64,000 nucleotides of DNA, taken from contig NZ_CP058529.1 in the NCBI RefSeq assembly GCF_013401515.1, positions 3,038,001 through 3,102,000 of the forward strand, in the 5' to 3' direction. This DNA comes from Halorarum halophilum. GTDB lineage: Archaea; Halobacteriota; Halobacteria; Halobacteriales; Haloferacaceae. Below, piece after piece: positions 4,430 to 39,961 of the stretch (within the stretch, counting starts at the first letter, position 1; each line of letters opens with the position of its first letter). A model generated the notes under the pieces. The model was not told the DNA's origin and ran no database searches. It saw nothing but the letters and a program-made list of their open reading frames with translations. The position numbers were made by a program, and so were the translations under genes.

Positions 4430-4541
4430 ACCGTACCCCTGCACCGATTCGGTGATAAGTTTGCCCCACCCTCGACGACCGACGCTCGACCCCCGTCCCC
4501 GCAAAGCGACGAGTGGATAGCGGCTCCGGGCCGGACGGGAC

Positions 4542-4986: not shown

Positions 4987-6519
4987 TCAGATTCCACCCT
5001 CGGGCGTCCGGGGAGCGCCGACCGGCGTCGGGAGGTCTGCGGCACTCTCTTCCCGGATTGCTGCAGCGAGGTGGAGCAGGGAGAGCGGGACGGGGTCGTC
5101 CAGCCGAGCCCGATTTCGGTCGTCCACGAAGGCCCCCGTGGACTCCCGAAACCGGCCCTCCAGGAGGTCGGTCCCGAGCGTCTGGGCCGCCTCCAGGTAC
5201 TCCCCCCGGTCCGTCGCGCGGTGGAGTTCGAGCAGTCCGTACAGGAGCGCGTAGTCGGGGGGGTCGGTGCGGTCGGACGCGCTGAGGTCCGGTTTCGAAT
5301 CGGGGCGGCCGACTTCGCCCAGGCCGAGCCCCCGGCCAATGTCCCGGGCGGCCCGCCAACAGACCGGGTCGTCCGTCAGCCGACTCGCCCGCGCGTACGT
5401 CCAGAAGAACTCCGGGCCGGCGTCGATGGGGCCGACGACGCGCCCCTTCGGCCCGAAGTACCCGTTGCGCCGGCAGACGAACCCCTCCAGGCTGTGCCCG
5501 TCGGTGAGCATCGGCTCGAACTCGTTCGCGTCCGAGCGGTAGGCGACCTCGTACCAGGCCCGGAGCTCTTCCAATGCCCACCGCGTGAACGACTCCCCCC
5601 GCGGACCGAGCCGGTCGCCGAGCGCGAGCTGCTGCCGCTGGACGATCGGACGGGGGCGGAACAGCGTTCCCTCGTAGACGAGGTGGTCGCCGTGGATGTA
5701 CGGGGCGAACTGGTACTGCGCCCGGTCGCCTCGGATCGCCGGCCCGTTGCAGTAGCTGGGGTGCTGGCTGAATTGGTAGCCGCTGAGCCCGGGCTCCTGA
5801 CGCGTCTCGACGTACCGACGGGCGAGCCGCTCGGCCCACGTCAGCGGGGCCGCCTCGTTCGCGAACGACGAGAGGAGTCCGGCGGCGTAGTAGAGGTCGC
5901 TCCCGGTGTTGACGAACGTGAGCCCCTCGCCCCAGAAGAACACGTCGCCCCCCTCGTACTCGTCGTCCCAGGGGTTCCCGACGGCCCCGTCCCACTCCCC
6001 GTGACGGTTGAAGTCCAGCCGCCCCCAGTCGACGACGTGCGCGCTCCAGAACGCCTCGACGAACCGCCGGGTCCGTTCGGCGTCGACCTCCCAGAGGAAC
6101 TCGTAGAACGGGTACTCGAACTTCAGTTCGTGCGCGTCCTTGTTGATCACGAGTTCGTCGGCGTCGAGGTCGTACGCGGCGTGGCCGCCCCAGTAGAGGA
6201 GGCCCGCCGAGTCGGACAGTTCCTCGAGGACCCACGAGGTGAGCGCCGCCGCCTCGTCGCGGTACTCGGTCGCCCCGGTCGACCGGGCGAGCCCGACGAG
6301 CGTCCGGAGGAACTCCTGCTGGACGGCGAAGTTCGAGAGCCGACGGCCGTCGTCCACGTCGCGGGCGTCGTAGGGAACGGCGTCAAGCGTCCCGGCGTCG
6401 ACGGCGTCGGCCAGGAGCGGCGTTCGGTCGTCGCCGTATCGGTCGCGGCCGTGTTCGAAGACGGTATCGGCGTGCCGTCGGACGGACTCGACGAGTTCGC
6501 CGGCCAGCGTCGTGGACAT
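4987..6519 (-). CDS. cytoplasmic pectate lyase, PL2-like
   Basis: A 510-residue protein resembling family PL2 pectate lyases, (alpha/alpha) barrel enzymes that cleave oligogalacturonides by metal-assisted beta-elimination inside the cell or periplasm. WGGH (residues 110-113), HELK (130-133) and NRHGEW (171-176) place His113, Glu131 and His173 where the Yersinia PL2 enzyme has its metal ligands (His109, Glu130, His172, from memory), with Arg172 at the catalytic-base position. Length also fits. No signal peptide follows the start I chose (6519); the frame continues upstream but that part would overlap the divergent PL1 promoter. It probably processes imported oligomers. A six-hairpin glycosidase is the main alternative. 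Confidence 0.7.
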   Translation of the reverse strand: MSTTLAGELVESVRRHADTVFEHGRDRYGDDRTPLLADAVDAGTLDAVPYDARDVDDGRRLSNFAVQQEFLRTLVGLARSTGATEYRDEAAALTSWVLEELSDSAGLLYWGGHAAYDLDADELVINKDAHELKFEYPFYEFLWEVDAERTRRFVEAFWSAHVVDWGRLDFNRHGEWDGAVGNPWDDEYEGGDVFFWGEGLTFVNTGSDLYYAAGLLSSFANEAAPLTWAERLARRYVETRQEPGLSGYQFSQHPSYCNGPAIRGDRAQYQFAPYIHGDHLVYEGTLFRPRPIVQRQQLALGDRLGPRGESFTRWALEELRAWYEVAYRSDANEFEPMLTDGHSLEGFVCRRNGYFGPKGRVVGPIDAGPEFFWTYARASRLTDDPVCWRAARDIGRGLGLGEVGRPDSKPDLSASDRTDPPDYALLYGLLELHRATDRGEYLEAAQTLGTDLLEGRFRESTGAFVDDRNRARLDDPVPLSLLHLAAAIREESAADLPTPVGAPRTPEGGI

Positions 6520-6672
6520 GATGATACGGGCATCGTCGGTGCGGAACTTCGTCTTTCGGGTCGCAACAGTCGACGCGCCCGGTTCCGGAGCCGTCCCGTC
6601 GGCTCGGCGGAGATCGATGCTGGTGTCAGATACTACACGGATCAAAATAGCTTGGTACGGGTTGACATAACC

Positions 6673-6712: not shown

Positions 6713-8821
6713 ATGGCACCAACCAGGCGCACGCTCATGCGTGCGATCGGAGCGGGGAGTATCGGTACCGCGGCGGTTCCGCTGGCCAGCAGCGGGGCCG
6801 CGGCTGCGACGATCATCACCATCGAGGGGGGCGGCGCGGACATCTGGAGCGAGGTGGACGCGTTCCACTTCTACTACGAGTCGCTGGAGGGCGACTTCGA
6901 CGTGACGGTGCGCAACACGGAACTCGAACGCACCGACGCCTTCGCGAAGACCGGGCTCATGGTCCGGGAGACGCTGGACGACGACGCGAAGAACGTGATG
7001 CTCCGCCGGACGCCCGACGGGGCGGCCTCGCTGCAGTGGCGACCGGAGGCCGGGACGGAGACGCTCAGCACGACGTCGGGCGGAGAGGACGAGAGCGACG
7101 TGGACGGCGGCAGCGTGCAGGCCGACTGGCTGCGGCTGCGCCGGAGCGGCGACACGGTCGAAGCGTACGGTTCCACGGACGGGAGCGACTGGACGCGGAT
7201 CGCGCAGCTCGGACCGGAGAACGTCGACCTCGACTCGGCGGCGCACGTCGGGATCCCGGTCACGAGCCACAACGTGGGCACGCTGTGCACCGCGCAGCAC
7301 CGGAACCTGTCGGGGATCTCGCCGGACACGAATCGGGACATCGGCGACGTCGAGGTCGCCGGGAGCGTCTCGGTCGAGGAGGGCGTACCGTTCGTCTCGA
7401 CGGATTCCCCGTCGGACGTGACCGCGTCCTCCGCGACCCTCAGCGGCGAACTGACTGACCTCGGCGGGGCGGAGTCCGCCGAGTGCTACTTCGAGTACCG
7501 GGAGGTTCCGACGGAGTCGTGGACCGCGACGGAGTCGACGACGCTCGCGGAGACGGACGAGTTCTCCGTCGACCTCGGCGGGCTGACGAGCAGACGGTAC
7601 TACGAGGTGCGCGCGGTCGCCGACACGAGCGACGGCGACCGCGCGACGGGGTCGTCGGTCACGCTCGGGACGCCGAGCATATCGGACGGCGAGGACGACT
7701 CGGACGGACCGGAGAGCGCGTCCGCGTTCGACCCCGGTGACGGGTTCGCGGACCCCGCTCCGTGGCTGGACAACGACACGCCCGTCATCCTGATCACGGA
7801 GCCGACGCGTCGTCAGCTCGAAGCCGCCGTCGGCGTAGACGGACCGCGCGTCGTGGTCTTCGAGACCAGCGGGACCATCGACCTGGATGCCCAGCGGCTC
7901 ACGGTGACCAACGATCGACTGTACCTCGCCGGCCAGACGGCGCCGTCGCCGGGCATCACGCTCGTCCGCGGGGGGATCTGGCTGTCCGCCGACGACTGCG
8001 TGGTCCAGCACGTTCGCGTACGGCCGGGGGACGCCGGCCAGGACACCAGCTGGGAGCCCGACGCCATCCAGACGGGCGACGGCACCGCGAACAACGTGAT
8101 CGACCACTGCACGGGGACGTGGTCGGTCGACGAGAACATCAACGCGGGCTACGACACGACGGACACGACGATCTCGAACTGCCTGATCGCCGAGCCGCTG
8201 AACGACGCGACCCACTCGAAGGGCGAGCACGGCTACAACTCCATTATCGGCGACCGGGCGAAGCGGGTCACGTACGTCGGTAACGTCCTGGCGTTCGCCA
8301 CCGACCGGAACCCGCGCCTGAAGGAGGGTACCGAGACCGTCATCGCCAACAACCTCGTCCACCGGTACGAGGACGGCATGTGGGCCGACCCCGACACCGC
8401 CCACAGCATCGAGGGCAACGTGTTCCAGCGACCCGTCAGCGAGCAGGCGAACGTCTTCGGCGAGGGGAGCGTCCACGCCGACGGCAACGTCCTCGACTGG
8501 GACGCGGACGTCCCGATGATCGGGGACGGGATCACCCTGCTCGACGAGCGGCCGCTGTGGCCCGACGAGCTGGAACGGATCCCCACCGACCGGGTCGAGA
8601 CACACAACCTCCGGAACGCCGGCGCGCGCCCCGCCGACCGGTCCGAACACGACGAGCGAATCGTCGAGAACGTCCGCACAGCCGGCGGTGCGGTCGTCGA
8701 CAGTCAGGATGAGGTCGGCGGCTACCCCGACCTCGCGGAGCACTCCCGATCGCTCCGCGTTCCCAGCAGTGGGACGCGCGCGTGGCTCCGCAGCTGGGCC
8801 AAGCGGGTCGAGGTCTCCTGA
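6713..8821 (+). CDS. secreted pectate lyase, PL1, with N-terminal accessory domains
   Basis: A 702-residue exported enzyme. Residues 1-31 form a Tat signal (RRTLMRA, then a small-residue stretch ending in an Ala run). Residues 33-200 resemble a concanavalin-like/DUF1349-type beta-sandwich, 225-320 a fibronectin-III-like domain, followed by an Asp/Ser linker, and 355-690 a right-handed beta-helix of PL1 type: VVFETSGTIDL, LAGQTAPSPGITL, IDHCTGTWSVDEN (462-474) and RNPRLK (532-537), the last carrying the likely catalytic Arg. PL1 enzymes cleave polygalacturonate by Ca2+-dependent beta-elimination. It is the only clear extracellular depolymerase here and lies upstream of a GH28 gene. Confidence 0.88.
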   Translation: MAPTRRTLMRAIGAGSIGTAAVPLASSGAAAATIITIEGGGADIWSEVDAFHFYYESLEGDFDVTVRNTELERTDAFAKTGLMVRETLDDDAKNVMLRRTPDGAASLQWRPEAGTETLSTTSGGEDESDVDGGSVQADWLRLRRSGDTVEAYGSTDGSDWTRIAQLGPENVDLDSAAHVGIPVTSHNVGTLCTAQHRNLSGISPDTNRDIGDVEVAGSVSVEEGVPFVSTDSPSDVTASSATLSGELTDLGGAESAECYFEYREVPTESWTATESTTLAETDEFSVDLGGLTSRRYYEVRAVADTSDGDRATGSSVTLGTPSISDGEDDSDGPESASAFDPGDGFADPAPWLDNDTPVILITEPTRRQLEAAVGVDGPRVVVFETSGTIDLDAQRLTVTNDRLYLAGQTAPSPGITLVRGGIWLSADDCVVQHVRVRPGDAGQDTSWEPDAIQTGDGTANNVIDHCTGTWSVDENINAGYDTTDTTISNCLIAEPLNDATHSKGEHGYNSIIGDRAKRVTYVGNVLAFATDRNPRLKEGTETVIANNLVHRYEDGMWADPDTAHSIEGNVFQRPVSEQANVFGEGSVHADGNVLDWDADVPMIGDGITLLDERPLWPDELERIPTDRVETHNLRNAGARPADRSEHDERIVENVRTAGGAVVDSQDEVGGYPDLAEHSRSLRVPSSGTRAWLRSWAKRVEVS

Positions 8822-8897: not shown

Positions 8898-10430
8898 ATG
8901 CACGAAACAGCCACCGGTCGGTACGACGTCCGCGAGTACGGCGCGACGGGCGACGGCGAGGAACTCGACACCGACGCGATACAGGACGCCCTCGACGACT
9001 GCGCCGAGACCGGCGGGACGGTCCACGTCCCGCCCGGGACGTACCGGACGGCGCCGCTCCGCGTCGGGGACGACACGACCCTCCACCTCGACGCCGGCGC
9101 GACGATCGCGTTCGTCCGCGACTACGCGGCGTTCCCGACGGTCGAGAGCCGGTGGGAGGGGTGGGACCAGGTCGGCTTCCACCCCTGCCTCCGCGTCGCC
9201 GACGCGGAGAACGTCACCGTCACGGGTCGGGGGGCGATCGACGGGAGCGGCGACTACTGGTGGGAGTTCTACGACGCGCCCGAGTCCGAGCATCCCGACG
9301 GACTGCTGGAGCGCCTGGCGGAGTTCGAGGAGCGGAACGAGAACGCCGACGACGTCAGCAGTTTCACCCACCGGCCGCCGCTGTTCCAGGTGTACGAGTC
9401 CGAGAACGTCACCGTCTCGGGCGTCACGCTCCGGAACTCCCCCTTCTGGAACACGCACGTCGTCTACTCGGAGGACGTCACGATCCACGACGTGAACGTC
9501 GAGAACCCGGCCGACGCGCCGAACGGCGACGGCATCGACGTCGACTCCTCGCAGTTCGTCCGGATCAGCGACACCTACATCAACGCCGGCGACGACGCCA
9601 TCTGCATCAAGTCGGGCAAGGACGCGGAGGGGCGGGAGGTCGGCCGGCCGGCCTCGGGGATCACCGTCACCAACTGCACGGTCGAGGCGGGACACGGCGG
9701 GATCGTCATCGGGAGCGAGATGTCCGGCGATGTCCGGGACGTCGTCGTCTCGAACTGCACGTTCACCGACACCGACCGGGGTATCAGGATCAAGACGCAG
9801 CGCGGTCGCGGCGGCGTCGTCGAGGACCTCCGGTTCGACAGCATCGTCATGCGCCGCGTCGGCTGCCCGTTCGTCGTCAACGGCTACTACTTCACCGACA
9901 TCGACAGCGAGCCGCTCCCCGTCGACGAGGGGACCCCGATGGTCCGGAACGTCCACTTCCACGACATCACCGCCACCGAGGTTTCCTCCGCGGGGTTCAT
10001 GGCCGGACTCCCGGAACGCCCGTTCGAAGGAATCTCGTTCTCGAACGTCCGCATCGACGCGACCCGGCCGCTCGACGCCACGGATATCTCTCCCGCGATG
10101 GCCGAGAACTACGACGCCTCCCACGCGTTCTTCTGCAAGTCGCTCGCCGACGTGTCGTTCGACGGGGTGGAGATTCGGACGCCGGACGCCCCGGCGCTCG
10201 AGTGCGAGGCTGTCGAACTGGTCTCGGTCGACGGACTCCGAGTTCCGGATCCGCAACCCTCGCCGGCGGTATCCGTCACCGACGTCGCGGAGACGAGGGT
10301 GGGCGGCTGTACCGCCCCGGAGTCCGGGACGTTCCTCCGGGCCCGGGGGGCCGGTTCGATCTCGCTCGCCGGAAACCACGGCTCGCTGGCGGACCACGTC
10401 GACGCGGACGCACAGGTCGACCGCCGATAG
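8898..10430 (+). CDS. GH28 polygalacturonase (1), cytoplasmic
   Basis: A 510-residue right-handed beta-helix glycoside hydrolase of family GH28, which hydrolyses alpha-1,4-galacturonosyl (or rhamnogalacturonan) bonds. Motifs run in the canonical order: NGDGIDVD near residue 210, GDDAICIKSG near 231, GHGGIVIGSE near 265 and RGIRIKT near 294, carrying the family's catalytic aspartates, His and the RIK substrate-binding site. There is no signal peptide, so it probably acts as an exo-enzyme on imported oligosaccharides. The start at 8898 is 23-29 bases after a TTATTTT box (8869-8875), indicating a leaderless message. A paralogue is at 55405. Confidence 0.9.
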   Translation: MHETATGRYDVREYGATGDGEELDTDAIQDALDDCAETGGTVHVPPGTYRTAPLRVGDDTTLHLDAGATIAFVRDYAAFPTVESRWEGWDQVGFHPCLRVADAENVTVTGRGAIDGSGDYWWEFYDAPESEHPDGLLERLAEFEERNENADDVSSFTHRPPLFQVYESENVTVSGVTLRNSPFWNTHVVYSEDVTIHDVNVENPADAPNGDGIDVDSSQFVRISDTYINAGDDAICIKSGKDAEGREVGRPASGITVTNCTVEAGHGGIVIGSEMSGDVRDVVVSNCTFTDTDRGIRIKTQRGRGGVVEDLRFDSIVMRRVGCPFVVNGYYFTDIDSEPLPVDEGTPMVRNVHFHDITATEVSSAGFMAGLPERPFEGISFSNVRIDATRPLDATDISPAMAENYDASHAFFCKSLADVSFDGVEIRTPDAPALECEAVELVSVDGLRVPDPQPSPAVSVTDVAETRVGGCTAPESGTFLRARGAGSISLAGNHGSLADHVDADAQVDRR

Positions 10431-10933
10431 ACAGGCAGGCCGCCCCCCAACCCCGTTCCCGCCTGCCGAACCAGTTCTGCCGGGTCACTCCGTCCGTTCC
10501 GGGGAAGACCTCCCGCCGAACCGTCCCGACCTCGCTTCGATCCCGACGAGCGACCCACAGCCCCCGCGTTTTCGTGCGAGTGCCCCCCTCGAGTCCCTGT
10601 CCCCGCCGGTTCCTGCGTTACGAACGGAGTTCCGGGATCGACGGGAGCAGGAGCGGCGACGAGGGAATGCTGGGAACGGGTTCGTAACCGACCCGCGTGT
10701 CGGGAACTGGCTCGCTCACGGCTCCTCCCTGCGGAAATCGGGACGGTGTCGTTCGAGCGTCCCCGTTTCCCCAGTCATCCTTACAAACATACGCTCGTAA
10801 TGACGGTCCGAACGACGGGATTCGAGTTCCCGTGTGGGGAACGGTCTTCCCCGCCTCGCGTGTCGGAGCCAGGAACGATCAGTCGGTAAGCAAAACTGTT
10901 ATGCTCCGCTCGGCGGACGTCGTTACCACCTCG
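10431..10933. other. intergenic region with duplicated-locus residue
   Basis: No gene is supported in these 503 bp. Bases 10452-10490 resemble the conserved block upstream of the IclR gene (26363-26447) and of the IclR remnant (58427-58508), sharing a CGTTCCCGCCT core. Farther right lie the 22-bp dyad (10780-10801) and a 17-bp palindrome (10826-10842), in the same order as in the 26 kb locus. The region therefore looks like a trace of the same duplicated module now acting as upstream DNA of the oxidoreductase at 10934. Confidence 0.45.
10780..10842. promoter_or_regulatory. 22-bp dyad plus 17-bp GTTCCC palindrome
   Basis: Bases 10780-10801 read CTTACA-N10-CGTAAT with a TAC at the centre, a copy of the RTTACR-N10-YGTAAY element. 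Bases 10826-10842 are GTTCCCGTGTGGGGAAC, a 17-bp site with perfect 6-bp arms. Both precede the Gfo/Idh gene at 10934 by 92-150 bp. The pairing repeats at 26540-26584, which supports a shared regulatory role. Confidence 0.55.
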
Positions 10934-11989
10934 ATGATCGAACACTCGGAATCTGACGACGCGATCAGGGTCGGTCTCGTGGGCCTCGGCAGCCTCGGCG
11001 TCCGCCTCGGGCGCCAGTTCGTCGAACTCCCGAACTCCGAACTGGTCGCGGTGTCCGACGTCAGCGCGAGCGGCCTCGCGGACGCGGGCCGCGAACTCGG
11101 CATCCCGGAGTCCGCCAGGTACGCGGAGTACGGGGCGATGCTGGACGGGACGGAGCTCGACGCCGTCGCGATCGCGACGCCGAACGGGCTCCACTACGAC
11201 CAGACGCTCGCCGCGCTCGACCGCGGTCTGCACGTGCTGTGCGAGAAGCCGATCGCGACGAGCGTCGAGGACGCGCACGACATCACCCGGAGGGCCGAGG
11301 CGAGCGATCGGGTGGTGATGCTCGGCTACCAGCGCCACCTGAATCCGGCGTACGACCTGGCGAGGGACCGGTGGGCGCTCGGCGACCGGGAGCCGACGTT
11401 CGTCACCGGGGAGCTGACCCACGACTGGCGCGAGTACTACGAGACGATGGACGACTGGCGGATGGACCCCGAACTGAGCGGCGGGGGGCACCTCCTCAAC
11501 GTCGGCACGCATGTCATCGACGCGATCCTGTGGACGACCGGGCTCACGCCGACGCACGTGAACGCCCACGTGGACTTCCACGACGAGGACCAGATATTCG
11601 ACAAGCAGTCCTCGATCGTCATCGAGTTCGCGAACGGGGCCGTGGGGAACGTCTCCGACTCGGGGATCGTCGCCCGCACGCGGGAGCACGTCCACCTCTG
11701 GGACGACGAGGGGGCGGTGTACCTGGAGGGGACCGAGTGGGACGAGCGGACCGGGTACACCATCGACGCCGAGGGGACCGAGCACCGCCCGCACCTCGAT
11801 TACAGCCGGCGGCTGAGCAAGGGAACGGCGTTCCTCGAGGCGATCGAGACGGGGGCGGAGCCCCCGGCGACGGCCCGCGACGGTCTGAAGGCGACGGCCG
11901 TGACGATGGCGGCCTACGAGTCCGGGCGCGGGGCGGGTCGCGTCGCGATCACCGACCTGTACCCCTTCCTCGACGGGATCTTCGACTGA
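10934..11989 (+). CDS. Gfo/Idh/MocA-family sugar oxidoreductase (3)
   Basis: A 351-residue cytoplasmic dehydrogenase with a textbook dinucleotide fold (VGLVGLGSLG, residues 13-22) and the family EKP motif in HVLCEKPIATS near residue 100, plus a conserved GGGHLLNVGTH stretch whose His is the usual active-site position. The ATG at 10934 is favoured because the preceding 79 codons lie in a region full of palindromic sites and resemble no family. A CTGTTATGC element at about 10896-10904 is a possible TATA box. It directly precedes the first ABC importer operon, so an imported sugar or sugar acid is a likely substrate. Confidence 0.87.
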   Translation: MIEHSESDDAIRVGLVGLGSLGVRLGRQFVELPNSELVAVSDVSASGLADAGRELGIPESARYAEYGAMLDGTELDAVAIATPNGLHYDQTLAALDRGLHVLCEKPIATSVEDAHDITRRAEASDRVVMLGYQRHLNPAYDLARDRWALGDREPTFVTGELTHDWREYYETMDDWRMDPELSGGGHLLNVGTHVIDAILWTTGLTPTHVNAHVDFHDEDQIFDKQSSIVIEFANGAVGNVSDSGIVARTREHVHLWDDEGAVYLEGTEWDERTGYTIDAEGTEHRPHLDYSRRLSKGTAFLEAIETGAEPPATARDGLKATAVTMAAYESGRGAGRVAITDLYPFLDGIFD

Positions 11990-12103: not shown

Positions 12104-13984
12104 ATGCCAGACCCTAGCAACTGGCGAAGAGAGCTGAGTACCAGACGCACGTTCCTCAAGACGGGGGCGGCCGGCGGGGCAGCGCTGCTCGCCGGCTGTT
12201 CCGGTGACGACCCGCCCGAACCCGGTGGAAACGGCGGCGGGAACGGCGGGAACGGCGGCAACGGAGGAAACGGCGGCAACGGGTCGTCGACTCGCTTCAG
12301 GGTGTTCGACCCGCTCACGAGCGGGGTCCCGCCAACGGAGCGCCACCTCAACCCCTGGAACCCGTCCCAGACGGGCTGCTGGCATCCGGGCGCCGCGATG
12401 TTCGACCGCCTGGCGGTGTATAGCCCGACGAAGAACGAGGCGTATCCGCTCATGGCCGAGTCCTGGGAGATGACCGAGGACACCGTCCTCGAAGCGACCC
12501 TCAGCGACCAGTGGACCTGGCACAACGGGGATCAGTTCGTCGCCCAGGACTACGTCATGGAACAGCAGATCGAACTCGAGATCCTGAAGGCCGGCGCCGA
12601 GGAGGGCAAGCGGGCCCACCAGGTCATGAAGTCCATCGAGGCCGTGGACGACCGGACCATCAGGGTCACCCTCCACGACCCGATGTCCGAGATCTTCGCG
12701 GTGCAGAACACCATCGGCTCATACCACGGGAACCTCGGGCGCGGCATCTTCACCAAGCACGACGACGACAAGTGGAGCGACTGGCACCAGCGGCTCCGGG
12801 AGGGCGATGGCGACGAGAAGGAGGCCGTCATCGGGGAGATCACGTCGGCGAAGTACCCGGCGCTCTCCGACGACCCGATCGGTCACGGGCCGTTCCAGAT
12901 CTCGGAGGTCGGCGACAACATCGTCATCCTGGAGAAGTACGAGGACCACCCGAACGCGGACAACATCAACTTCGACGAGTTCGCGCTCAAGCTCTTCTCC
13001 CAGGACAAGCCCACCCAGCCGTACTCGAACGGGCTGGTCGACGCCGCACACAAGGGCTTCCCCGTCTCGACCGACCTCGAGGCCCAGCTCCCGGAGGGCC
13101 ACACGCTGTTCCGGGAGGGGAGATCCAGCAACAAGCTGTTCGCGTTCAACTGCGGTCACGACGTCGAAGGGTACGACACGCCCTTCACGAGCGTGAACGT
13201 TCGCAAGGCCGTCTGCCACGTGTTCGACCGTCAGCAGGTATCCTCCCTGCTCCAGGGCGTCAACCGCCTGTTCGAGTGGGCCCCGTGTCGGGTGCCCGGC
13301 AAGGTGCTCACGGAGGGCACCATCGACGTGAGCGACTTCACCCTGTACGGGGAGAACGACACCGAACGCGCGGCGGAGTTGCTCCAGCGGGAGGGGTACA
13401 CGCAGGAGGGCGGCAACTGGATGACCCCCGACGGCGAGCGCTTCAAGCTCAACATCATGAACGGTGCAGAGCGCCCGGACATCCAGGTGCTCAAGAAGAA
13501 CCTCAAGGACTTCGGGATCGAAGTCGAACAACAGCAGGTCGACGACGCGACGTTCGACGAGCGACGGACGAACGGCGAGTACGACATCATGCCCGACGGC
13601 TCGTCCGCCAACGGCATCTCCGCGCTGTGGGCGCTGGACCTGGTCCCCGACTGGATCCAGTCCATCACCCACTTCAAGCCCGAACGCGACGTGCCGATGC
13701 CGATCGGCGACCCGGAGGGGTCGAGCGGGACGAAGACGATCAACGTCGCCGACCACATCCGTCAGTGGCAGGCCACCGGCGAGGACAAGTACCACCGCGA
13801 GCTGATGTGGTGGTGGAACCAGACCCTCCCCGAGGCAGAGATGATGTACCAGCCCGACGCGGGGGCCTACGACGGCTCCAACTGGGAGCTGGACATCAGG
13901 GACGGCATTCGGAACGGCGTCGACGACGCGCTGTACGTCGCGCCGAAGATGTCCGACGGCGCCCTTCGGTACGTCGGCGACTGA
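12104..13984 (+). CDS. ABC transporter substrate-binding lipoprotein, family 5 (1)
   Basis: A 626-residue solute-binding protein of the oligopeptide/dipeptide family (SBP_bac_5), which in haloarchaea often binds oligosaccharides. The N-terminus has a Tat motif (RRTFLK, residues 14-19) and a lipobox ending in LLAGC (Cys32), followed by a Gly/Asn-rich linker (about 38-60), so it is lipid-anchored outside the membrane. The mature part has typical family features such as ATLSDQWTWHNGDQF and NVRKAVCHVFDR. It opens an operon-like array with two permeases (14425, 15416) and a fused ATPase (16560). The pectinolytic context suggests oligogalacturonide or rhamnogalacturonan oligomers. Confidence 0.9.
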   Translation: MPDPSNWRRELSTRRTFLKTGAAGGAALLAGCSGDDPPEPGGNGGGNGGNGGNGGNGGNGSSTRFRVFDPLTSGVPPTERHLNPWNPSQTGCWHPGAAMFDRLAVYSPTKNEAYPLMAESWEMTEDTVLEATLSDQWTWHNGDQFVAQDYVMEQQIELEILKAGAEEGKRAHQVMKSIEAVDDRTIRVTLHDPMSEIFAVQNTIGSYHGNLGRGIFTKHDDDKWSDWHQRLREGDGDEKEAVIGEITSAKYPALSDDPIGHGPFQISEVGDNIVILEKYEDHPNADNINFDEFALKLFSQDKPTQPYSNGLVDAAHKGFPVSTDLEAQLPEGHTLFREGRSSNKLFAFNCGHDVEGYDTPFTSVNVRKAVCHVFDRQQVSSLLQGVNRLFEWAPCRVPGKVLTEGTIDVSDFTLYGENDTERAAELLQREGYTQEGGNWMTPDGERFKLNIMNGAERPDIQVLKKNLKDFGIEVEQQQVDDATFDERRTNGEYDIMPDGSSANGISALWALDLVPDWIQSITHFKPERDVPMPIGDPEGSSGTKTINVADHIRQWQATGEDKYHRELMWWWNQTLPEAEMMYQPDAGAYDGSNWELDIRDGIRNGVDDALYVAPKMSDGALRYVGD

Positions 13985-14279: not shown

Positions 14280-14401
14280 TGGGTCGTCCCGTCGGCGATC
14301 GGTGTCTGTGACGAGCGGTTCGAATCACGGTGCGCGAGTGGTAGTGTGGGCGACCTGACGTGGCGTTTTCGAGCGGATGGGAAAATTCATTACGGTGGTC
14401 G

Positions 14402-14418
14402 CGAAACGCTTGTCTATC
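14402..14418 (+). promoter_or_regulatory. internal promoter before importer 1 permeases
   Basis: The sequence CGAAACGCTTGTCTATC just before the ATG at 14425 lines up with GAAACGTTTATACTATC before the paralogous permease at 48134. The shared spacing suggests that both permease-ATPase sets have their own promoter separate from the binding-protein gene. Here the TATA core is weaker (CTTGTCTAT). Confidence 0.4.
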
Positions 14419-14424
14419 AGTACC

Positions 14425-15429
14425 ATGGCAACGTTGGACTGGCGCATACGACGGATAGCGCAATCGGTGTTCACGGTGTGGGCGGTCCTCACGCTCTCGT
14501 TCGCCCTGATCCGCATGATGCCGGGGAACCCGATGGGGGCGATGGTCGCCCAACTGGAGAGCCAGGGGGTCGACCCGGTCCGCGCGCGACAGCTCGTCGA
14601 GCTCCGGATGAGCGTCGATCCGACCAAACCGATCCCGATCGCGTACGTCGAGTACATGGGCAGCATGCTCCAGGGCGATCTGGGGGTGTCGACCTACTAC
14701 GCCCAGCCGGTCGCCGAGATACTCGCGCAGGCGATGCCGTGGACGCTGTTCGTGTTGAGCTGGTCGCTGTTCATCAGCTTCTTCATCGGCATCTCCGTCG
14801 GGGCGCTGATGGCGTACTGGGAGGGCGGCAAACTCGACGTGGGGATGACCTCGTGGGCGATCCTCATGGGGTCGATCCCGTTCTACGTCATGGCGATCCT
14901 CCTGTTGATCTTCTGCTCGTACCGGTTCGGCTGGTTCCCGACCAGCGGCCGGGCGCCGACCGGCGTCCCCGCCGGCGTCAACTGGCCGTACATCAAGGGG
15001 ATCGTCCACCACGCGGCGCTTCCGGTCATGTCCATGCTGGTCGCATCCGGGATCGCCTCGCTCGGGATGCGCGGCAACAGCATCCGGGTTCTCGGGTCGG
15101 ACTACCTCAGGGTGGCCCACCTCCGTGGACTCTCGGACGTGACCATCTCGACCCAGTACGTCGCGCGCAACGCCGTGCTCCCGATGTACACGACGCTGCT
15201 CATCAGCATCGGCGAGATGTTCGGCGGCTCCATCGTCCTCGAGAAGGTGTTCCAGTACCAGGGGCTCGGCTACTACCTGTTCTCGGCGTTCAACCAGCGG
15301 GACTACCCGCTGATGATGGGGGGGTTCATGGTCATCACGGTGGCGGTCGTGATCGCATTACTACTCGCGGACATGACGTACGGGTTGGTCGACCCGCGCG
15401 CAGGAGGTCAGCACAGTGAAACGTACTGA
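14425..15429 (+). CDS. ABC transporter permease, DppB-type (1)
   Basis: A 334-residue inner-membrane permease of the oligopeptide/dipeptide importer family (BPD_transp_1). It has an N-terminal helix ending in ALIRMMPGNP, a periplasmic loop, and further membrane segments with the cytoplasmic EAA-type loop around VLGSDYLRVAHLRGLSD that contacts the ATPase. I start at 14425 by alignment with its paralogue at 48134; an in-frame Met 16 codons earlier is possible but would fall across the putative promoter. The next permease gene starts inside its 3' end, showing co-translation. Confidence 0.9.
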   Translation: MATLDWRIRRIAQSVFTVWAVLTLSFALIRMMPGNPMGAMVAQLESQGVDPVRARQLVELRMSVDPTKPIPIAYVEYMGSMLQGDLGVSTYYAQPVAEILAQAMPWTLFVLSWSLFISFFIGISVGALMAYWEGGKLDVGMTSWAILMGSIPFYVMAILLLIFCSYRFGWFPTSGRAPTGVPAGVNWPYIKGIVHHAALPVMSMLVASGIASLGMRGNSIRVLGSDYLRVAHLRGLSDVTISTQYVARNAVLPMYTTLLISIGEMFGGSIVLEKVFQYQGLGYYLFSAFNQRDYPLMMGGFMVITVAVVIALLLADMTYGLVDPRAGGQHSETY

Positions 15430-16555
15430 ATCGCCGTTCGACGACTGGGAGGGTAGGGAGGAAAGCGACGCCGACGGCTCGGCTGAAGACGGTGCCGGGG
15501 CCGACGGCGCGACAACTGGCGGCGACGCGATGGCCGACGGCGGCGCCGTCGGGTCGCCGTTCGAGGTCGTCTCCCAGTACGAGGAGACTCGACGCGACCG
15601 GTACCGGAAGCTGTTCGACGCGTACGTGTACGCCCCCATCTCCATCATCTGGCGCGACTGGCGCGCCCGGATCGGGTTCACCATCGTGCTAGCGTACGTG
15701 CTGATGGGCACCGTCGGAACGGTGATCGTCCCGCCGACGGAGGTGGTCGAGGGGCCGGCGCTCGCCCAGCCGTTCCAGCACTGGGAGTACCCGCTCGGCA
15801 CCGACGACATGGGTCGGGACCTGTTCGCACAGACGGTCCACGCGACACAGGAGATGCTGAAGATGATCACGGCGGGGGCGCTGTTCACCGTGACCATGGG
15901 GACGGTCGTGGGGGCGGTCGCCGGCTACAAGGGCGGGATGGTGGACACGGTGCTCAGTTCGATCACCGACATCTGCATCAACATCCCCGGGCTCCCGCTG
16001 GTGATGGTGCTCGTCCTGCTGCTCCCCATCGGGGGCAACCCGTACGTGATCGGAATCATACTGTGCATCGCGGCGTGGGGCGGGCTGGCACGGGCGATCC
16101 GGTCGCAGGTGCTCACGCTCCGCCAGGAGTCGTTCGTCGAGGCCTCGCGGGCGATGGGGATCCCCACCCGGAGGATCGTCTTCAAGGAGATCGTCCCGCA
16201 CCTGATGCCGTTCGTCGTCATCAACCTCACGAACGCCTCGCGCAGGGTCATCTTCGAGGCGGCGGCGCTGTACTACCTCGGCGTCCTGCCGTTCGAGGAC
16301 CTGAACTGGGGGGCCACTCTGAACCTCGCACAGACGGGCCAGGCCCACGTCCGGCCGCAGGCGCTCCACTGGTTCCTGGTGCCGATGGTGGCGATCATCT
16401 TCATCTCCATCGGGCTGATCCTGCTGGGGCAGTCGCTCGACCGGGTGTTCAACCCCCGAGTTCGGGCGCGACACGAGAAGACGACGTCCGACGCGGGCGA
16501 CGATGCCGAGGAGGAGAGTACGACCAACCCGGACGTGATGGGCGGAGGACTCTGA
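15416..16555 (+). CDS. ABC transporter permease, DppC-type (1)
   Basis: A 379-residue second permease of importer 1. It has an unusually long acidic N-terminal extension (about 65 residues, Asp/Gly/Ala-rich) before the first membrane helix, then the DppC pattern with YPLGTDDMGRD and an EAA loop in VEASRAMGIPTRRIVFKEI. It begins with GTG at 15416, overlapping the previous gene by 14 bases, and is preceded by a strong ribosome-binding site AGGAGGT at 15402-15408, unusual in an organism where most genes are leaderless. It partners with the permease at 14425 and the ATPase at 16560. Confidence 0.9.
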   Translation: MKRTESPFDDWEGREESDADGSAEDGAGADGATTGGDAMADGGAVGSPFEVVSQYEETRRDRYRKLFDAYVYAPISIIWRDWRARIGFTIVLAYVLMGTVGTVIVPPTEVVEGPALAQPFQHWEYPLGTDDMGRDLFAQTVHATQEMLKMITAGALFTVTMGTVVGAVAGYKGGMVDTVLSSITDICINIPGLPLVMVLVLLLPIGGNPYVIGIILCIAAWGGLARAIRSQVLTLRQESFVEASRAMGIPTRRIVFKEIVPHLMPFVVINLTNASRRVIFEAAALYYLGVLPFEDLNWGATLNLAQTGQAHVRPQALHWFLVPMVAIIFISIGLILLGQSLDRVFNPRVRARHEKTTSDAGDDAEEESTTNPDVMGGGL

Positions 16556-16559
16556 GACA

Positions 16560-18740
16560 ATGACCCTTTCAACGACCGAGTACGGAACCGAACGGGAGGT
16601 AGAGGATCCGATCATGCAGGTGCGCAACGCGTCGGTCACGTTCGACATGGAGCGGGGCGACTCGCGCGTGCTCGACGACGTCGACCTCGACATCCAGCGC
16701 AACGAGGTGCTCGGCGTCGTCGGGGAGAGCGGGAGCGGGAAGTCGATGCTCGCGTCCGGGCTGCTCGACGCCGTCGTCGACACCGGCGTGCTCACGGGCG
16801 AGCTCACGTACCGCCCGAAGGACGGGGAGCCGGTGGACGTGCTCGATCTTACGGACTCGGAGCTGAGGGAGTTCCGCTGGGAGCAGGTCTCGATGGTGTT
16901 CCAGGGCGCGATGAGCTCGTTCAACCCGGTGCGCGAGATCAGCACCCACTTCGTCGAGACCCTGAGCGCGCACGACTACAACGTCGACGAAGGGATGGAG
17001 CGGGCCGAACAGCTGCTCAGAGACCTGTATCTCGACCCCGATCGGGTGCTCAACTCGTACCCGCACGAGCTCAGCGGGGGGATGAAACAGCGGGCGCTAA
17101 TCGCGCTCAGCCTCATCCTCGAGCCGGAGGTGCTCGTGATGGACGAGCCGACGGCGGCGCTGGACCTGCTGATGCAGCGCTCGATCATCGCGCTGCTCGA
17201 GGACCTGAAGGACCAGTACGACCTGACCATCGTCTTCATCACCCACGACCTGCCCCTCATCGCCGACCTCGTCGACCGCATCGCGGTGATGTACGCGTTC
17301 GAGATCGCCGAACTCGGGCCGACGCGGGAGATCCTGGAGTTCCCCGCACACCCGTACACGCGGCTCCTATTGAAGTCGACGCCGAACCTCGGGTCGCCGA
17401 TCGAGGAGATGCGGCCGGTCGAGGGGAGCGCACCCGACCCGGTGAACGTCCCGTCGGGCTGTTCGTTCCACCCGCGCTGCCCGCTCTCGGACGAGACCTG
17501 CGAGATGCAGGATCCCGCGGCGTACCCGGTCGACGACGATCACCACGTCCACTGCCACCACTGGGAGGAGTCCGCCGAGGCGATCCCGATGGCCGACGAC
17601 GCCGCCTCGTCGGACGCGTTCGCCGACCACGACGTCGGGACGGCGACCGCCGTGGCCCGCGGCACGAACGAGCAACCGGTCGTGTCGCTCTCCGACCTCG
17701 AGGTCCACTTCGAGCAGGCGAAGGGGTTCCTCGACGTGTTCTCCTCGCCCGACACGGTCAAAGCGGTCGACGGCATCTCGCTGGACGTCTACGAGAACGA
17801 CGTGGTCGTCCTCGTCGGCGAGTCCGGGTGCGGGAAGACGACGCTCGGCAAGGCCGCCGTGGGGCTCCAGCGACCGACCGGCGGGAGCGTGGAGTACCGC
17901 GGCCACGACATCTGGGACGTGCGGGAATCGGGGAGCGACGACATGACGTGGGGGCAGATCCGGCGCTCGCTCCAGATCGTCCACCAGGACCCCGGCAGTT
18001 CGCTCAATCCCCACCGACGGATCAAGGCGAGCCTGCAGGAACCACTCAAGCGCTGGAACGCCGACCTCGACGGGAACGACCGGAAGCAGCGCATCCTCAG
18101 CCTGCTCGAACACGTCGGCATGTCGCCCGCGGAGGACTACTTCGAGCGCTACCCCCACCAGCTCTCGGGCGGCGAACAACAGCGCGTCGCGCTCATCCGC
18201 GCGATGCTGATGAACCCGGACCTCATCCTCGCGGACGAGCCGGTCTCTGCGCTGGACGTGAGCCTCCGGGTCGAGATGATGGACATGATGATCCAGCTCC
18301 AGGACGTGTTCGACACGTCGTACCTGTTCATCAGCCACGACCTCTCGAACGCCCGGTACATCGCGCAGCGGACCGGCGGCCGCATCGGCGTCGTCTACCT
18401 CGGCGAACTCGTCGAGATCGGCCCGCCCGAGCAGATCATCCACAACCCCCAGCACCCGTACACGCAGGCGCTCCGATGGGCGACCCCAGAACTCTCCGCC
18501 GAGGAGGCCGAGGGCGAGGTCGACGACTCCCCCATCCGGACGATCGACATCCCGGACCCGACGAACCCCCCGAGCGGGTGCCGGTACCACACCCGCTGTC
18601 CGGAGGCGCGGGAGGTATGTCGCACGACCGAACCGGAGTCGTACGGCGCGTCGGACGCGGACGACCACAGGGTCGCCTGCTTCCGCTCGGTCGACGACCA
18701 CGAGTACTGGAACAGCGAGTCCATCGTCGGCGACGACTGA
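16560..18740 (+). CDS. fused double ABC ATPase (DppD-DppF type)
   Basis: A 726-residue protein carrying two complete ATPase halves. Half 1: Walker [10 protein letters not shown] (about 55-63), signature [10 protein letters not shown], Walker [12 protein letters not shown], then the oligopeptide-type C-terminal region with CSFHPRCP. Half 2: Walker [10 protein letters not shown] (about 420-428), signature [11 protein letters not shown], Walker [12 protein letters not shown] and CRYHTRCP. A linker of about 40 residues joins them. It energises the importer formed with the two upstream permeases, starting four bases after the permease stop with GGAGGA upstream. In importer 2 the same two halves are separate, overlapping genes (50162, 51232). 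Confidence 0.92.
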
Positions 18741-22929: not shown

Positions 22930-23100
22930 GAACCGAGCAGTCGGCCGGGCGCATTATAGCTTGTGTCGACCGGCTGGACGGCTGATTCCGACCTCGACGC
23001 AGGGCTCCTTGCCCCGACATCCGAGCCGGGGCGGACACCGGAGCTGTGTACGGGGGGGCGGTAGCTTTATTTGAATTTCCGGTTTACTGTGAGTCACTCC

Positions 23101-24036
23101 ATGGCAAGAGCCGACCTCAGAGATAGCTATCGGGACGTCGCGTTCACCACAGCCACGCCGTTCGGCGAGGCGGACGGGGAGGTCCTCCACGACGCGCTGG
23201 CTGAGAACCTTTCGGGACTGTACGATGCCGGAGCACGCCAGTTCGTCCCCTGCGGGAACACGGGCGAGTACTACTCGCTCACGGACGAGGAGCGGGCCGA
23301 GATCGTCGAGACCCACGTGGCGGCGACCGGCGACGAGGCGACGGTGACCGCCGGCGCCGCGGGGAGCGTGGCGGAGATCGAACGCCTCGCGTCGGCCTAC
23401 GAGGAGGCGGGCGCGGACGCGATGATGGTGATGCACCCCGACCACACGTACGCGCACGAGGACGGCCTGAAGGAGTACTACCACGCCGTGTGCGACGCGA
23501 CCGACCTCGGCGTCGTCATCTACAAGCGTGGCCCCGAGGTGACGCGCGACACCCTCCTGGAGCTGTCCGAACGCGAAGAGGTCGTCGCCGTGAAGTTCGC
23601 CGTCAACGACATCAAGGAGTTCGCCCAGACGGTGGCCGACTCCTCGGGCGAGGTGACCTGGGTGAACGGGATCGCGGAGCGGTACGCGCTCTCGTTCGCG
23701 ATCGAGGGGGCGAGCGGGTTCACGACCGGCATCGGGAACTTCGTCCCGGAGGCGACGCTGTCGCTATTCGACGCGGTCGAGGCGGAGGAGTGGGAGCGCG
23801 CCCGGCGCATCCAGCGCGTCCTGCGGCCGTACGAGGACCTCAGGGAGGACGTCGGCGAGGGCAACACGCTCCCGGCCGCGAACAACGTCCCGGCGGTGAA
23901 GTACGGGATGGACCTGGCGGGGTACCACGGCGGCCCGGTGCGGAGCCCCCTCGTCGACCTCTCGGAGCGGGACCGATCGCGGGCGGAGGAGCACTACGAC
24001 CGCATCGAGGCGGAGTCGCCCCTCGAAGTGATCTGA
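23101..24036 (+). CDS. DHDPS/NAL-family aldolase or decarboxylating dehydratase (1)
   Basis: A 311-residue TIM-barrel class I lyase. GNTGEYYSL (52-60) is the substrate carboxylate loop, Tyr141 in VVIYKRG the proton relay and Lys165 in VVAVKFAV the Schiff-base residue. The family includes 2-keto-3-deoxy-aldonate aldolases and 5-keto-4-deoxyglucarate dehydratase/decarboxylase (KdgD). The latter would complete a galacturonate-to-2-oxoglutarate-semialdehyde route with the genes at 20859, 57281 and 21796, but an aldolase role is equally compatible. Start at 23101 follows a TTTATTTG box (23066-23073). A paralogue with an altered loop is at 31884. Confidence 0.85.
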   Translation: MARADLRDSYRDVAFTTATPFGEADGEVLHDALAENLSGLYDAGARQFVPCGNTGEYYSLTDEERAEIVETHVAATGDEATVTAGAAGSVAEIERLASAYEEAGADAMMVMHPDHTYAHEDGLKEYYHAVCDATDLGVVIYKRGPEVTRDTLLELSEREEVVAVKFAVNDIKEFAQTVADSSGEVTWVNGIAERYALSFAIEGASGFTTGIGNFVPEATLSLFDAVEAEEWERARRIQRVLRPYEDLREDVGEGNTLPAANNVPAVKYGMDLAGYHGGPVRSPLVDLSERDRSRAEEHYDRIEAESPLEVI

Positions 24037-24126: not shown

Positions 24127-25371
24127 TCACGCGGATTCGTCGTACTCGAACTCCGTCCACGGGCCCTCGACGAACGGGTACTCCTCGAGGACGTCGAGGT
24201 CGACCGTGACGCCGAGTCCGGGACCGTCGGGCACGGCCAGCATGCCGTCGGCGATCTCTAGCCGCTCCCCGATGATGTCGAACGCGAGGTCGAACTGGTA
24301 CATCCCCGGGTCCTCGTCGGCGTCCAGGGCCGGATCGCCCTCGAAGACGGGGTACTCGAGCAGCCGGACTTCGGGGGCCGCGGCGACGAGGTGCGCGTTC
24401 GCGACGAGGCCGAGCCACGTCCCGAAGTTGTGCGGGACGAACTCGACGTCGCGCCCATGACAGAAATCGACCGCCTCCCGGCACCCGGTGTACCCCTCGT
24501 GATGGCGCACGTCACCCTGGAGGAAGTCCACTGCGCCGGTTCGGCCGAGTTCGACGAGCCCGGCCGCCGACTCCTCGCTCTCCCCGCCGGCGAGCGGGGC
24601 GCCCGTCTCCGCGAGGGCGACGTACCCGTCGTGGTCGTCGGGTTCGACGGGCTCCTCGATCCAGTAGGCGCCGGCCTCGGTCGCGTACTCGACCAGTCGA
24701 GCGACTGTCTCGTCCCCGTAGGCGTCGCGGAGCTTCCACCACGTGTGGACGTCGAGCATGAGCTCCATGTCGTCGACCGCCTTGACGAGCAGGTCGACCG
24801 TCCGGCGGTCGCCGTCGGGGCCGATGCCGGGCCGGTACTTGTACCCCATGAACCCCAGTTCCTCCAGGACCGCCGCCTGGTCGGCGTAGCCCGTCGGCTC
24901 CATGTACATCCCGGCGCTGGCGTACAGCGGGAGCTCGGTGGTCGGGGTAGTCCCGTACTCGTCCGCGAGGAGCTCGTAGATTGGCGCGCCGAGCCGCTTC
25001 CCCCGGATGTCGTGGAGGGCGACGTCGACGGCCGAGCACGCCTCCGTCAGGAGGTGGCCCGTCGGCCCGGCCCCCGCGAGCAGGTCGTGCGCGTCCGCGG
25101 GCTCGTCCAGCGTCTCACCCTCCAGCGCGTCGGCGACGGTGCCATCGACGAGGTCGGCGAACGTCCCCTGCGAGTCGCCCTCGAAGTACTCCCGCATGGC
25201 GGAGCTGCTCGCGCCAGCGGTGGCGACACCCCGCTCGCCGTCCCGCGTCTCGACGACGACGAGGACGACGTCACGCTTCCGGAGGCGGCGCGTCCCGCCG
25301 AAGAAGCGGCGTTCCTGCGGCGGGTCGATCGGCGACGAGAGCGCGTATCCTCGGACGGTGGAGATCTGCAT
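24127..25371 (-). CDS. enolase-superfamily dehydratase, divergent subgroup
   Basis: A 414-residue MR/MLE protein. It has the superfamily frame (SAVDVALHDIRGK in the capping/barrel junction, LMLDVHTWW, YWIEEPVEP, AGGESEE, VPHNFG) but the first lysine motif is YKYRPG rather than K-x-K, pointing to a subgroup of uncertain chemistry. The start at 25371 is favoured over 25389 because a GGTTTAGA element (25396-25403) sits at leaderless distance from it. It lies just downstream of the IclR regulator on the same strand (78 bp), so the two may be transcribed together. Confidence 0.82.
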   Translation of the reverse strand: MQISTVRGYALSSPIDPPQERRFFGGTRRLRKRDVVLVVVETRDGERGVATAGASSSAMREYFEGDSQGTFADLVDGTVADALEGETLDEPADAHDLLAGAGPTGHLLTEACSAVDVALHDIRGKRLGAPIYELLADEYGTTPTTELPLYASAGMYMEPTGYADQAAVLEELGFMGYKYRPGIGPDGDRRTVDLLVKAVDDMELMLDVHTWWKLRDAYGDETVARLVEYATEAGAYWIEEPVEPDDHDGYVALAETGAPLAGGESEESAAGLVELGRTGAVDFLQGDVRHHEGYTGCREAVDFCHGRDVEFVPHNFGTWLGLVANAHLVAAAPEVRLLEYPVFEGDPALDADEDPGMYQFDLAFDIIGERLEIADGMLAVPDGPGLGVTVDLDVLEEYPFVEGPWTEFEYDESA

Positions 25372-25449
25372 GGTGGTGGATGCGGACACGGGCGTCTAAA
25401 CCGTTCCGGCTCCCGCGAGTAGGACTGACGACGCCGAACCCGGCCGCGC

Positions 25450-26223
25450 TCAGGAGAACTTCGTGTTGAGCTCGATGACGTTCGCCGCCCGGCGGACGTA
25501 GTCGGAGAGCACGTCGTGGAAGCGGTCGTTCGTGAACCGGCTCGACGGCCCGGACACGCTAATCGCCCCCAGCACCTTCTCGCCGTTCTTGACGGGGGCG
25601 GAGACGCACCGGAGCCCCTCGATGTTCTCCTCGTCGTCGATCCCGTACCCGCGCTCGGCCGTCACCTCGAGTTCCTCGTAGAGCTCCTCGCGCGTCGTGA
25701 TCGTCTTGGGCGTCATCCTCGTCAGCTCGGTCGACTCGACGATCTCCTCGCGGCGCTCCGCCGGGAGGAACGCGAGAATCGTCTTCCCCAGCGAGGTGGA
25801 GTGGATCGGCTGCTGGGTTCCGATCCTGGAGGCCGTCTCGACCGCCCGGTCGCCCGTCGCCTTGCAGAGGTAGGAGATGCGACCGTGTTCCTCGATCCCG
25901 AACTGGGCGATCTCGCCGGTCTCCTCCGCCAGCGACTCGACTTCGTCCTGGATGACGTCATGGTTACCGACCTGTTCGCGGACGTGCGTCGCCATGTCGA
26001 GGATGCGGAGGCTCAGTCGATAGCTGTCCCCCTCGCGGACCAGGATCTCCCGCTCCTCTAGCGTCCGGAGGTGGCTGTGGATCGTGCTCTTCGAGTGTCC
26101 CAGCTCGCTCGCGAGTTCGGTCACCCCGATGTCGTCCCGCTCCTGGAGGACGTCGATGATGTTGAAGGCGATCTTCACCGACCGGATCGTTCGGCCCGAC
26201 GCGGGTCCCGCTTGCTCTGTCAT
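25450..26223 (-). CDS. IclR-family transcriptional regulator (1)
   Basis: A 257-residue regulator: N-terminal winged helix-turn-helix (about 18-80; IIDVLQERDDIGVTELASELG, then SKSTIHSHLRTLEE as recognition region) and a C-terminal IclR effector domain (GYGIDDEENIEGLRCVSAP, ISVSGPSS). Haloarchaeal IclR proteins control pentose and hexose pathways. It begins at 26223, 25-31 bases after a TTTATGT box, with a perfect 17-bp palindrome (26257-26273) touching the upstream side of that box, suggesting autoregulation. Two decayed copies of the gene lie at 32948-33225 and 58183-58262; a more distant IclR protein is at 34831. Confidence 0.93.
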   Translation of the reverse strand: MTEQAGPASGRTIRSVKIAFNIIDVLQERDDIGVTELASELGHSKSTIHSHLRTLEEREILVREGDSYRLSLRILDMATHVREQVGNHDVIQDEVESLAEETGEIAQFGIEEHGRISYLCKATGDRAVETASRIGTQQPIHSTSLGKTILAFLPAERREEIVESTELTRMTPKTITTREELYEELEVTAERGYGIDDEENIEGLRCVSAPVKNGEKVLGAISVSGPSSRFTNDRFHDVLSDYVRRAANVIELNTKFS

Positions 26224-26247
26224 ACCAGTGTAGCACACCCCATACCA

Positions 26248-26273
26248 CATAAACCTGTTCCCATGAGGGGAAC
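26248..26273 (-). promoter_or_regulatory. IclR promoter with GTTCCC-N5-GGGAAC operator
   Basis: On the minus strand TTTATGT (26248-26254) is the TATA box of the IclR gene. Immediately upstream, overlapping the expected TFB-recognition element, is GTTCCCATGAGGGGAAC (26257-26273), with perfect 6-bp arms. The same 17-bp form occurs at 10826 and 26568, with imperfect copies at 33270 and 33410. Position against the promoter fits an autoregulatory site. Confidence 0.65.
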
Positions 26274-31581: not shown

Positions 31582-31883
31582 ACGGTGTCCGGTGACGAAA
31601 GCGGTCCGAAAATAGCTGTTGTTCTCGGACACCTTCGCCCCCTATCCGGCCGAACGTGGGACTCGGGACGGCGCTGACGCCCTCCATCTTCCATCTCGCC
31701 CGTTCCCGTGGCTCCGTTCGTCCGGAAGCGTCCGTGGGATCGGTCTCGTCTCGGTGCCGGTCTCGCCGTGTTCGCCCTCGATTCCCGAGGTTCGCCCGTT
31801 CCGTCCTGGCCTCACCGTCCCGTTCTTCTAGATTTCCCACAGGTGGACGAAGGTATTATGACGACGGGCTGGGATTCACTTCT
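31582..31883. promoter_or_regulatory. divergent promoters of GH4 and DHDPS-like genes
   Basis: This 302-bp gap contains the minus-strand TATA box of the GH4 gene at 31608-31615 and, at the other end, TATTATG (31854-31860) centred 27 bases before ATG 31884. Between them the DNA is GC-rich and I see no gene or repeat. Confidence 0.5.
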
Positions 31884-39957: not shown

Positions 39958-39961
39958 CCCG

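Follow-up and report, generated by a model that had tools for sequence, protein, structure and literature searches.

A predicted cytoplasmic PL2 pectate lyase within a conserved pectin gene cluster of the haloarchaeon Halorarum halophilum

Does a haloarchaeon carry a genuine intracellular pectate lyase of family PL2, and on which substrate would such an enzyme act? This question is raised by a minus-strand gene in a stretch of 64,000 nucleotides of the Halorarum halophilum contig NZ_CP058529.1 (called the window below), of which an earlier note, made by reading the letters, had proposed that it encodes an archaeal PL2 lyase with a preserved metal site. The observations on family membership, residue conservation, the absent signal peptide and the conserved gene cluster are best explained, with a probability of about 0.85, by a true PL2 enzyme that would act in the cytoplasm as a metal-assisted, beta-eliminating lyase on imported oligogalacturonides.

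Family, active site and cellular location of the PL2 protein

The proposed family assignment is borne out by the profile search, as the Pfam family PF06917 (Pectate_lyase_2) matches the 510-residue protein with an E-value of 6.8e-158 and 526.8 bits (cut-off 26.6) over its full length (profile positions 1-489 of 491), which is, at the level of sequence, a match far above chance. At an E-value of 0.001 no other Pfam family was found on the protein, and it is the single PF06917 match in its own genome. Its best solved relatives are the structures of Yersinia enterocolitica YePL2A (PelP; PDB 2v8i/2v8j/2v8k/6ojk/6ojl; E 2.8e-92, 36.3% identity over aligned columns), and the exopolygalacturonate lyase of Vibrio vulnificus (PDB 5a29) is matched with an E-value of 6.4e-64 (33.8% identity over aligned columns); every one of the five PDB sequences matched is a PL2 enzyme. 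The predicted structure is weak (mean pLDDT 55.4, pTM 0.69, three sequences only). Used with Foldseek, this model gave five PL2 chains as the sole matches at E ≤0.001 (best 6.3e-17), and a second structural aligner gave the PL2 chains Z values of 23.1-23.8, the next family reaching 17.5 (2v8j: Z 23.8, rmsd 5.0, 413 residues aligned). The structural matches of this low-confidence model thus favour an (alpha/alpha)7 barrel. Had another alpha/alpha-barrel family matched this model better, the proposal would have been contradicted; none did, and this alternative was rejected, since the GH47, LanC-like, UGL and epimerase folds rank below the five PL2 chains.

The active site was compared by aligning 11 haloarchaeal proteins with four bacterial ones, one archaeal row being pieced together from both parts of a broken frame; for the Yersinia protein, 4 was added to the chain index to obtain the numbering of PMC10992409. 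According to that paper, His109, His172 and Glu130 of YePL2A are the metal ligands, Arg171 and Arg272 the catalytic arginines, and Glu130, Lys132 and Glu515 contact the substrate; the +1 subsite is assigned there to Glu, Lys and Arg residues, plus Glu515 (PMC10992409). The residues His113, Glu131, Arg172 and His173, in which the metal and base pattern had been recognized earlier, do align with YePL2A His109, Glu130, Arg171 and His172, while Lys133 and Arg266 align with Lys132 and Arg272, so that all six Yersinia residues are kept; they are identical in 15 of 15 aligned rows, and 5a29 has the same catalytic residues. By alignment, H113, E131 and H173 would be the metal ligands, R172 the base, and K133 and R266 subsite residues. 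E507, near the archaeal C-terminal end, varies among homologues, and the Yersinia stretch compared ended before Glu515.

One position of the subsite region sets the archaeal proteins apart. The titles of PDB entries 6ojk and 6ojl name the YePL2A mutants K291W and R194K, with tetra- and pentagalacturonic acid; R194K concerns the base Arg171 (Arg194 in precursor numbers), the other position mutated by the depositors being Lys291. At the Lys291 site all 11 archaeal rows carry Ile followed by Arg (I262-R263 in the window protein), whereas the bacterial rows have Lys-Phe in Yersinia, Lys-Tyr in Cetobacterium and in 5a29, and Trp-Phe in Vibrio tritonius. Immediately ahead of this site, before the GDR motif, the archaeal proteins are also seven residues shorter than the Yersinia chain, and they end near GGI/GGV, where the Cetobacterium and Vibrio tritonius proteins are 18 and 24 residues longer. 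No report of this archaeal subsite change was found among the papers listed from the open-access literature, which is weak evidence of absence.

The location of the protein depends on where the frame starts. The frame is open further upstream, as a 618-residue ORF reaching to position 6843; this longer ORF was rejected as a gene because it overlaps the divergent gene with a Tat signal, which has its start at 6713. Among the haloarchaeal homologues, only 2 to 48 codons of open frame precede the aligned start, and in three of them there are 8 codons at most, too few to encode a signal peptide; we therefore kept 6519 as the start and the view that no signal peptide is present. Neither a hydrophobic nor a twin-arginine start was seen in the N-terminal sequence, as the earlier claim of an intracellular enzyme would have it, and the protein is thus most likely cytoplasmic. 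Its composition is acidic (87 D+E to 53 K+R). The mode of attack is less easily placed: the cytoplasmic location resembles that of YePL2B (PelW), a cytoplasmic, exolytic enzyme (PMC5559549, according to the portion of that paper available), yet the cut-off of the NCBIfam equivalog for cytoplasmic exolytic PelW (NF041904) is widely missed, with 215.7 of 1000 bits over profile positions 8-492. YePL2A, on the other hand, is described as periplasmic and endo-acting (PMC5559549, PMC10992409), whereas the window protein lacks a signal peptide.

A conserved gene cluster around PL2

The genes of the window that surround PL2 and bear on its function are collected in Table 1.

Table 1. Features of the PL2 gene cluster in the window; families and products are predicted by similarity.
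Feature	Coordinates	Strand	Evidence
PL2 pectate lyase	4987..6519	minus	510 aa, no signal peptide; PF06917 526.8 bits; PDB 2v8j E 2.8e-92; aligned active-site residues
Exported Tat-type pectate lyase, PelZ-like, divergent to PL2	6713..8821	plus	NCBIfam PelZ 226.5 bits (cut-off 840)
GH28 polygalacturonase-like enzyme	8898..10430	plus	PF00295 159.2 bits; likely start 8898
Gfo/Idh/MocA oxidoreductase	10901..11989	plus	PF01408 92.4 bits; start 10901 or 10934 (362 or 351 aa)
Family 5 solute-binding lipoprotein	12104..13984	plus	PF00496 134.3 bits; Tat lipoprotein signal by eye
ABC permeases (14377-15429, 15416-16555) and double ATPase (16560-18740)	14377..18740	plus	BPD_transp_1 twice; ABC_tran with oligo_HPY
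DHDPS-family aldolase or dehydratase	23071..24036	plus	PF00701 120 bits
Enolase-superfamily (MR_MLE) enzyme	24127..25389	minus	PF13378 149.9 bits
IclR-type regulator	25450..26250	minus	PF01614 131.7 bits
GH4 alpha-galacturonidase-like enzyme	30148..31632	minus	PDB 3fef LplD alpha-galacturonidase E 1.5e-111

The divergent PelZ-like lyase, whose RR (Tat-like) signal was read by eye, also matches the PDB pectate lyase 9buj (E 2.2e-18), and its N-terminal part gives a weak DUF1349 match (25.7 bits, under the cut-off of 32.4). No signal peptide was seen on the GH28 enzyme from its likely start, and it seems, from sequence, to be cytoplasmic like PL2. The ABC transporter is likely to be an importer, putatively of oligogalacturonides. 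The nearest solved relatives of the Gfo/Idh/MocA protein are aldose-aldose and glucose-fructose oxidoreductases, the best PDB match of the enolase-superfamily enzyme is galactonate dehydratase 5olc (E 8.7e-32), and the DHDPS-family protein scores 168.8 bits with the 5-dehydro-4-deoxyglucarate dehydratase subfamily, under its cut-off of 278.

The conservation of these neighbours was assessed at nine haloarchaeal PL2 loci with flanks (L004, L005, L016-L020, L043, L044), out of the ten besides that of the window, G667 being left out. Most flanks measure 8 to 10 kb, those of L043 and L044 5 to 13 kb, and some genes are truncated at the ends; all counts are therefore lower bounds. Relatives of GH28 (66-78% identity) were found in nine of nine neighbourhoods, those of the PelZ-like exported lyase (52-79%) in eight, and those of the Gfo/Idh/MocA oxidoreductase (66-72%) likewise in eight, the ninth record ending right after GH28. 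The IclR regulator recurs in five (63-66%, one over a partial frame), the solute-binding protein in four (62-75%), GH4 also in four (68-70%; directly after PL2 in L017, L018, L020 and L044), and the enolase-superfamily enzyme in two, L005 and L019, where it adjoins PL2 and is 68-69% identical. By its gene content, the PL2 cluster is a homogalacturonan island.

Several further observations were made in the window. Downstream of PL2 lies a gene for an acidic protein of 120 residues (4542-4904), with relatives (45-65% identical) in four of nine neighbourhoods; Pfam lists no match for it up to an E-value of 10. Past it, a nickel-pincer-cofactor isomerase is encoded at 3059-4504 (NCBIfam group 22, 493.3 bits, cut-off 400). 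A bacterial-type promoter or terminator was not found between the divergent PL2 and PelZ-like genes. The 8-mer CGACCCGA, followed by A, occurs upstream of PL2 (6520-6600) and is common to five of ten haloarchaeal upstream regions; it is a possible promoter or regulator site. A second, divergent GH28-like gene (55405-57015, 79.7 bits) is 29-33% identical to the GH28 enzymes of the PL2 neighbourhoods. The stretch 35944-42171 encodes an amidohydrolase, a zinc alcohol dehydrogenase, an enolase-superfamily enzyme nearest to L-rhamnonate dehydratase, a luciferase-like protein and a fumarylacetoacetate hydrolase nearest to 2,4-didehydro-3-deoxy-L-rhamnonate hydrolase, under equivalog cut-offs where tested; the set resembles a diketo-hydrolase route for L-rhamnose, which rhamnogalacturonan use would need. 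At 20859-24036 an epimerase-type dehydrogenase, an enolase-superfamily enzyme and the DHDPS-family enzyme stand side by side, and we presume a resemblance to the Agrobacterium set of uronate dehydrogenase, cycloisomerase and keto-deoxy-galactarate dehydratase. For this epimerase-type dehydrogenase, however, NCBIfam gives glucose-6-phosphate dehydrogenase Azf as the best match (189.2 bits, cut-off 400), and a relative 78% identical is found in L044.

Distribution and closest relatives of haloarchaeal PL2

In the haloarchaeal class, PL2 is rare but real: PF06917 scores over its cut-off in 10 of 391 genomes, that of the window included, an eleventh genome (G497) carries a PL2 fragment only (79 aligned residues), and in a phylum-wide sample PL2 is over the cut-off in two of 392 genomes, with a third weak partial match. 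A scan of genome contigs with the window protein alone gave two haloarchaeal relatives, the bacterial sampling amounting to four sequences, and the scan of viral contigs found no PL2 relatives. A plasmid collection yielded homologues from five haloarchaea and two bacteria, cases which give no rate of plasmid-borne PL2, as this collection contains plasmids only. Four of these five haloarchaea are already among the ten genomes, the one added being Natrinema sp. SYSU A 869. The record of Natrinema sp. DC36 lists no gene at its PL2 frame (L019:9001-10518), which an in-frame stop divides in two; this is either a pseudogene or a sequencing error. In the phylogenetic tree the haloarchaeal proteins are grouped with full support and separated by a long branch from the four bacterial proteins; the tree is silent on the date and direction of transfer, since it holds four bacterial rows only, all differing in composition.

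That a haloarchaeal PL2 is unusual, as had been suggested, holds as to rarity, but not as to novelty. A comparison of ten haloarchaeal genomes published in 2011 already listed a family 2 lyase, Htur_4786, in Haloterrigena turkmenica, close to PL1 lyases and a likely polygalacturonase (PMC3102087, in the portion of the text available), and three of the five haloarchaeal plasmid products are named 'pectate lyase'; the window protein is therefore a further example of something known. The closest described system is WP_012945801.1 of the H. turkmenica plasmid pHTUR02, 60.5% identical over the full query, which would, judging by the described neighbours, correspond to Htur_4786, the record having newer locus tags. 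Its locus shares the GH28, exported lyase, GH4 and IclR neighbours with the window; it lies on a 414-kb plasmid, whereas the window gene is found on a contig of 3.68 Mb.

Substrate and fate of the products

In the proposed scheme, the exported pectate lyase would cut homogalacturonan outside the cell, the ABC importer would bring oligogalacturonides into it, and GH28, GH4 and PL2 would shorten them in the cytoplasm. PL2 would work by metal-assisted beta-elimination: a transition metal, by analogy Mn2+ or Ni2+, would be bound by H113, E131 and H173, and R172 would abstract the C5 proton. The roles of the cluster enzymes are deduced here from their families and the PL2 chemistry from the conserved residues; the identity of the metal, the length of the substrate, an exo or endo mode of attack, uptake and growth on pectin likewise enter the scheme by inference.

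That the fold and metal site serve another uronate polymer or oligomer of hypersaline habitats, and not homogalacturonan, appears unlikely to us, although there are reasons to consider it. According to the available parts of PMC9726719, one large enrichment study yielded no pectin-using haloarchaeon, and isolates with PL genes (PL1, PL11, PL22 and PL26 being named there, PL2 not) failed to grow on pectin, polygalacturonate or rhamnogalacturonan; the authors suggest that another activity of these lyases is possible. The archaeal-only I262-R263 in the subsite region and the C-terminus, shorter than in the two bacterial proteins whose C-terminal ends were included, fit a different substrate as well, and PL2 may act on short fragments only, or on something else. 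Against this speak the conserved pectin-enzyme neighbours (GH28 in nine of nine loci, the PelZ-like lyase in eight), a GH4 enzyme closest to the LplD alpha-galacturonidase, and the retention not only of the metal and base residues but also of the +1 subsite Glu, Lys and Arg as assigned in the accessible text of PMC10992409. Less probable still is that the gene came as a passenger with a horizontally moved island and is now decaying or unused, with little activity in this cell. Its patchy spread (10 of 391 genomes), the stop-split copy of Natrinema sp. DC36 and the G497 fragment would suit such a passenger, but the window gene is full length, keeps the tested catalytic residues, encodes a protein of acidic composition and stands among the same neighbours as at other loci. 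We thus retain a cytoplasmic PL2 lyase on imported oligogalacturonides as the preferred explanation.

How the unsaturated products of such a lyase would be used is less clear from the known routes. In bacteria, as stated in the available part of PMC12838403, oligogalacturonate lyase (PL22) splits both saturated and unsaturated dimers to DHU, unsaturated rhamnogalacturonan or glycosaminoglycan oligomers are split to DHU by GH105- or UGL-type hydrolases, and either KduI or DhuI, a member of the RpiB/LacAB family, then isomerises DHU. PL22 scores over its cut-off in four of the ten PL2-bearing genomes and PF07470 (GH88/105) in five, six of ten having at least one known enzyme able to free DHU. 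By profile search, KduI (PF04962) was found in none of the ten and, with comparison genomes, in none of 15, the same holding for the DhuI family (PF02502) in these 15; among 14 named control genomes the KduI search was positive in six and the RpiB search in seven. PL22, GH88/105, KduI and the DhuI family are all without a match in four genomes (G000, G313, G411 and G429), that of the window among them. Across the 391 genomes of the class PF04962 gave 12 weak partial matches, five just over the cut-off and none full length (best 26 bits, cut-off 23.9); KduI has been reported in glycosaminoglycan-using haloarchaea (PMC13260240, in the portion available), and could there be a cupin-type enzyme like these weak matches. 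KduD is over its cut-off in none of 15 genomes, and short-chain dehydrogenases below the cut-off are abundant (25 in the window genome). By these profile searches, known steps are thus missing. The nickel-pincer isomerase was tried as the missing isomerase tied to PL2 and rejected: it occurs in none of nine neighbourhoods, has four copies in the genome and is also present in PL2-negative haloarchaea.

From chemistry and gene order, the conserved Gfo/Idh/MocA oxidoreductase may fill this gap by direct reduction, a role for or against which its nearest solved relatives do not speak. It would reduce the unsaturated monomer directly at the aldehyde to 2-keto-3-deoxy-L-galactonate; saturated galacturonate, reduced and dehydrated, would give the same compound, and both branches would join at one aldolase step. 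We put forward only tentatively, as a rather doubtful proposal, a pathway of some PL2-bearing haloarchaea without PL22, GH88/105, KduI and DhuI, in which PL2, GH28 and GH4 would yield monomers, Gfo/Idh/MocA would reduce DHU, and the archaeal PL2 would form a third specificity group. The use of DHU without an isomerase was not encountered among the papers listed from the open-access literature, again weak evidence of absence.

For the biology of haloarchaea, these results bear on pectin use: genomes carry pectin enzymes, yet the enrichments described in the accessible part of PMC9726719 failed. The absent downstream enzymes point to an archaeal step outside the known routes, and, if the proposal were true, the archaeal PL2 clade, with Ile-Arg for the bacterial pair of Lys or Trp and an aromatic residue, would represent a third specificity group of the family. 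A full-length PL2 with metal site and base, together with the importer, the exported lyase, GH28 and GH4, constitutes a defined, testable gene set.
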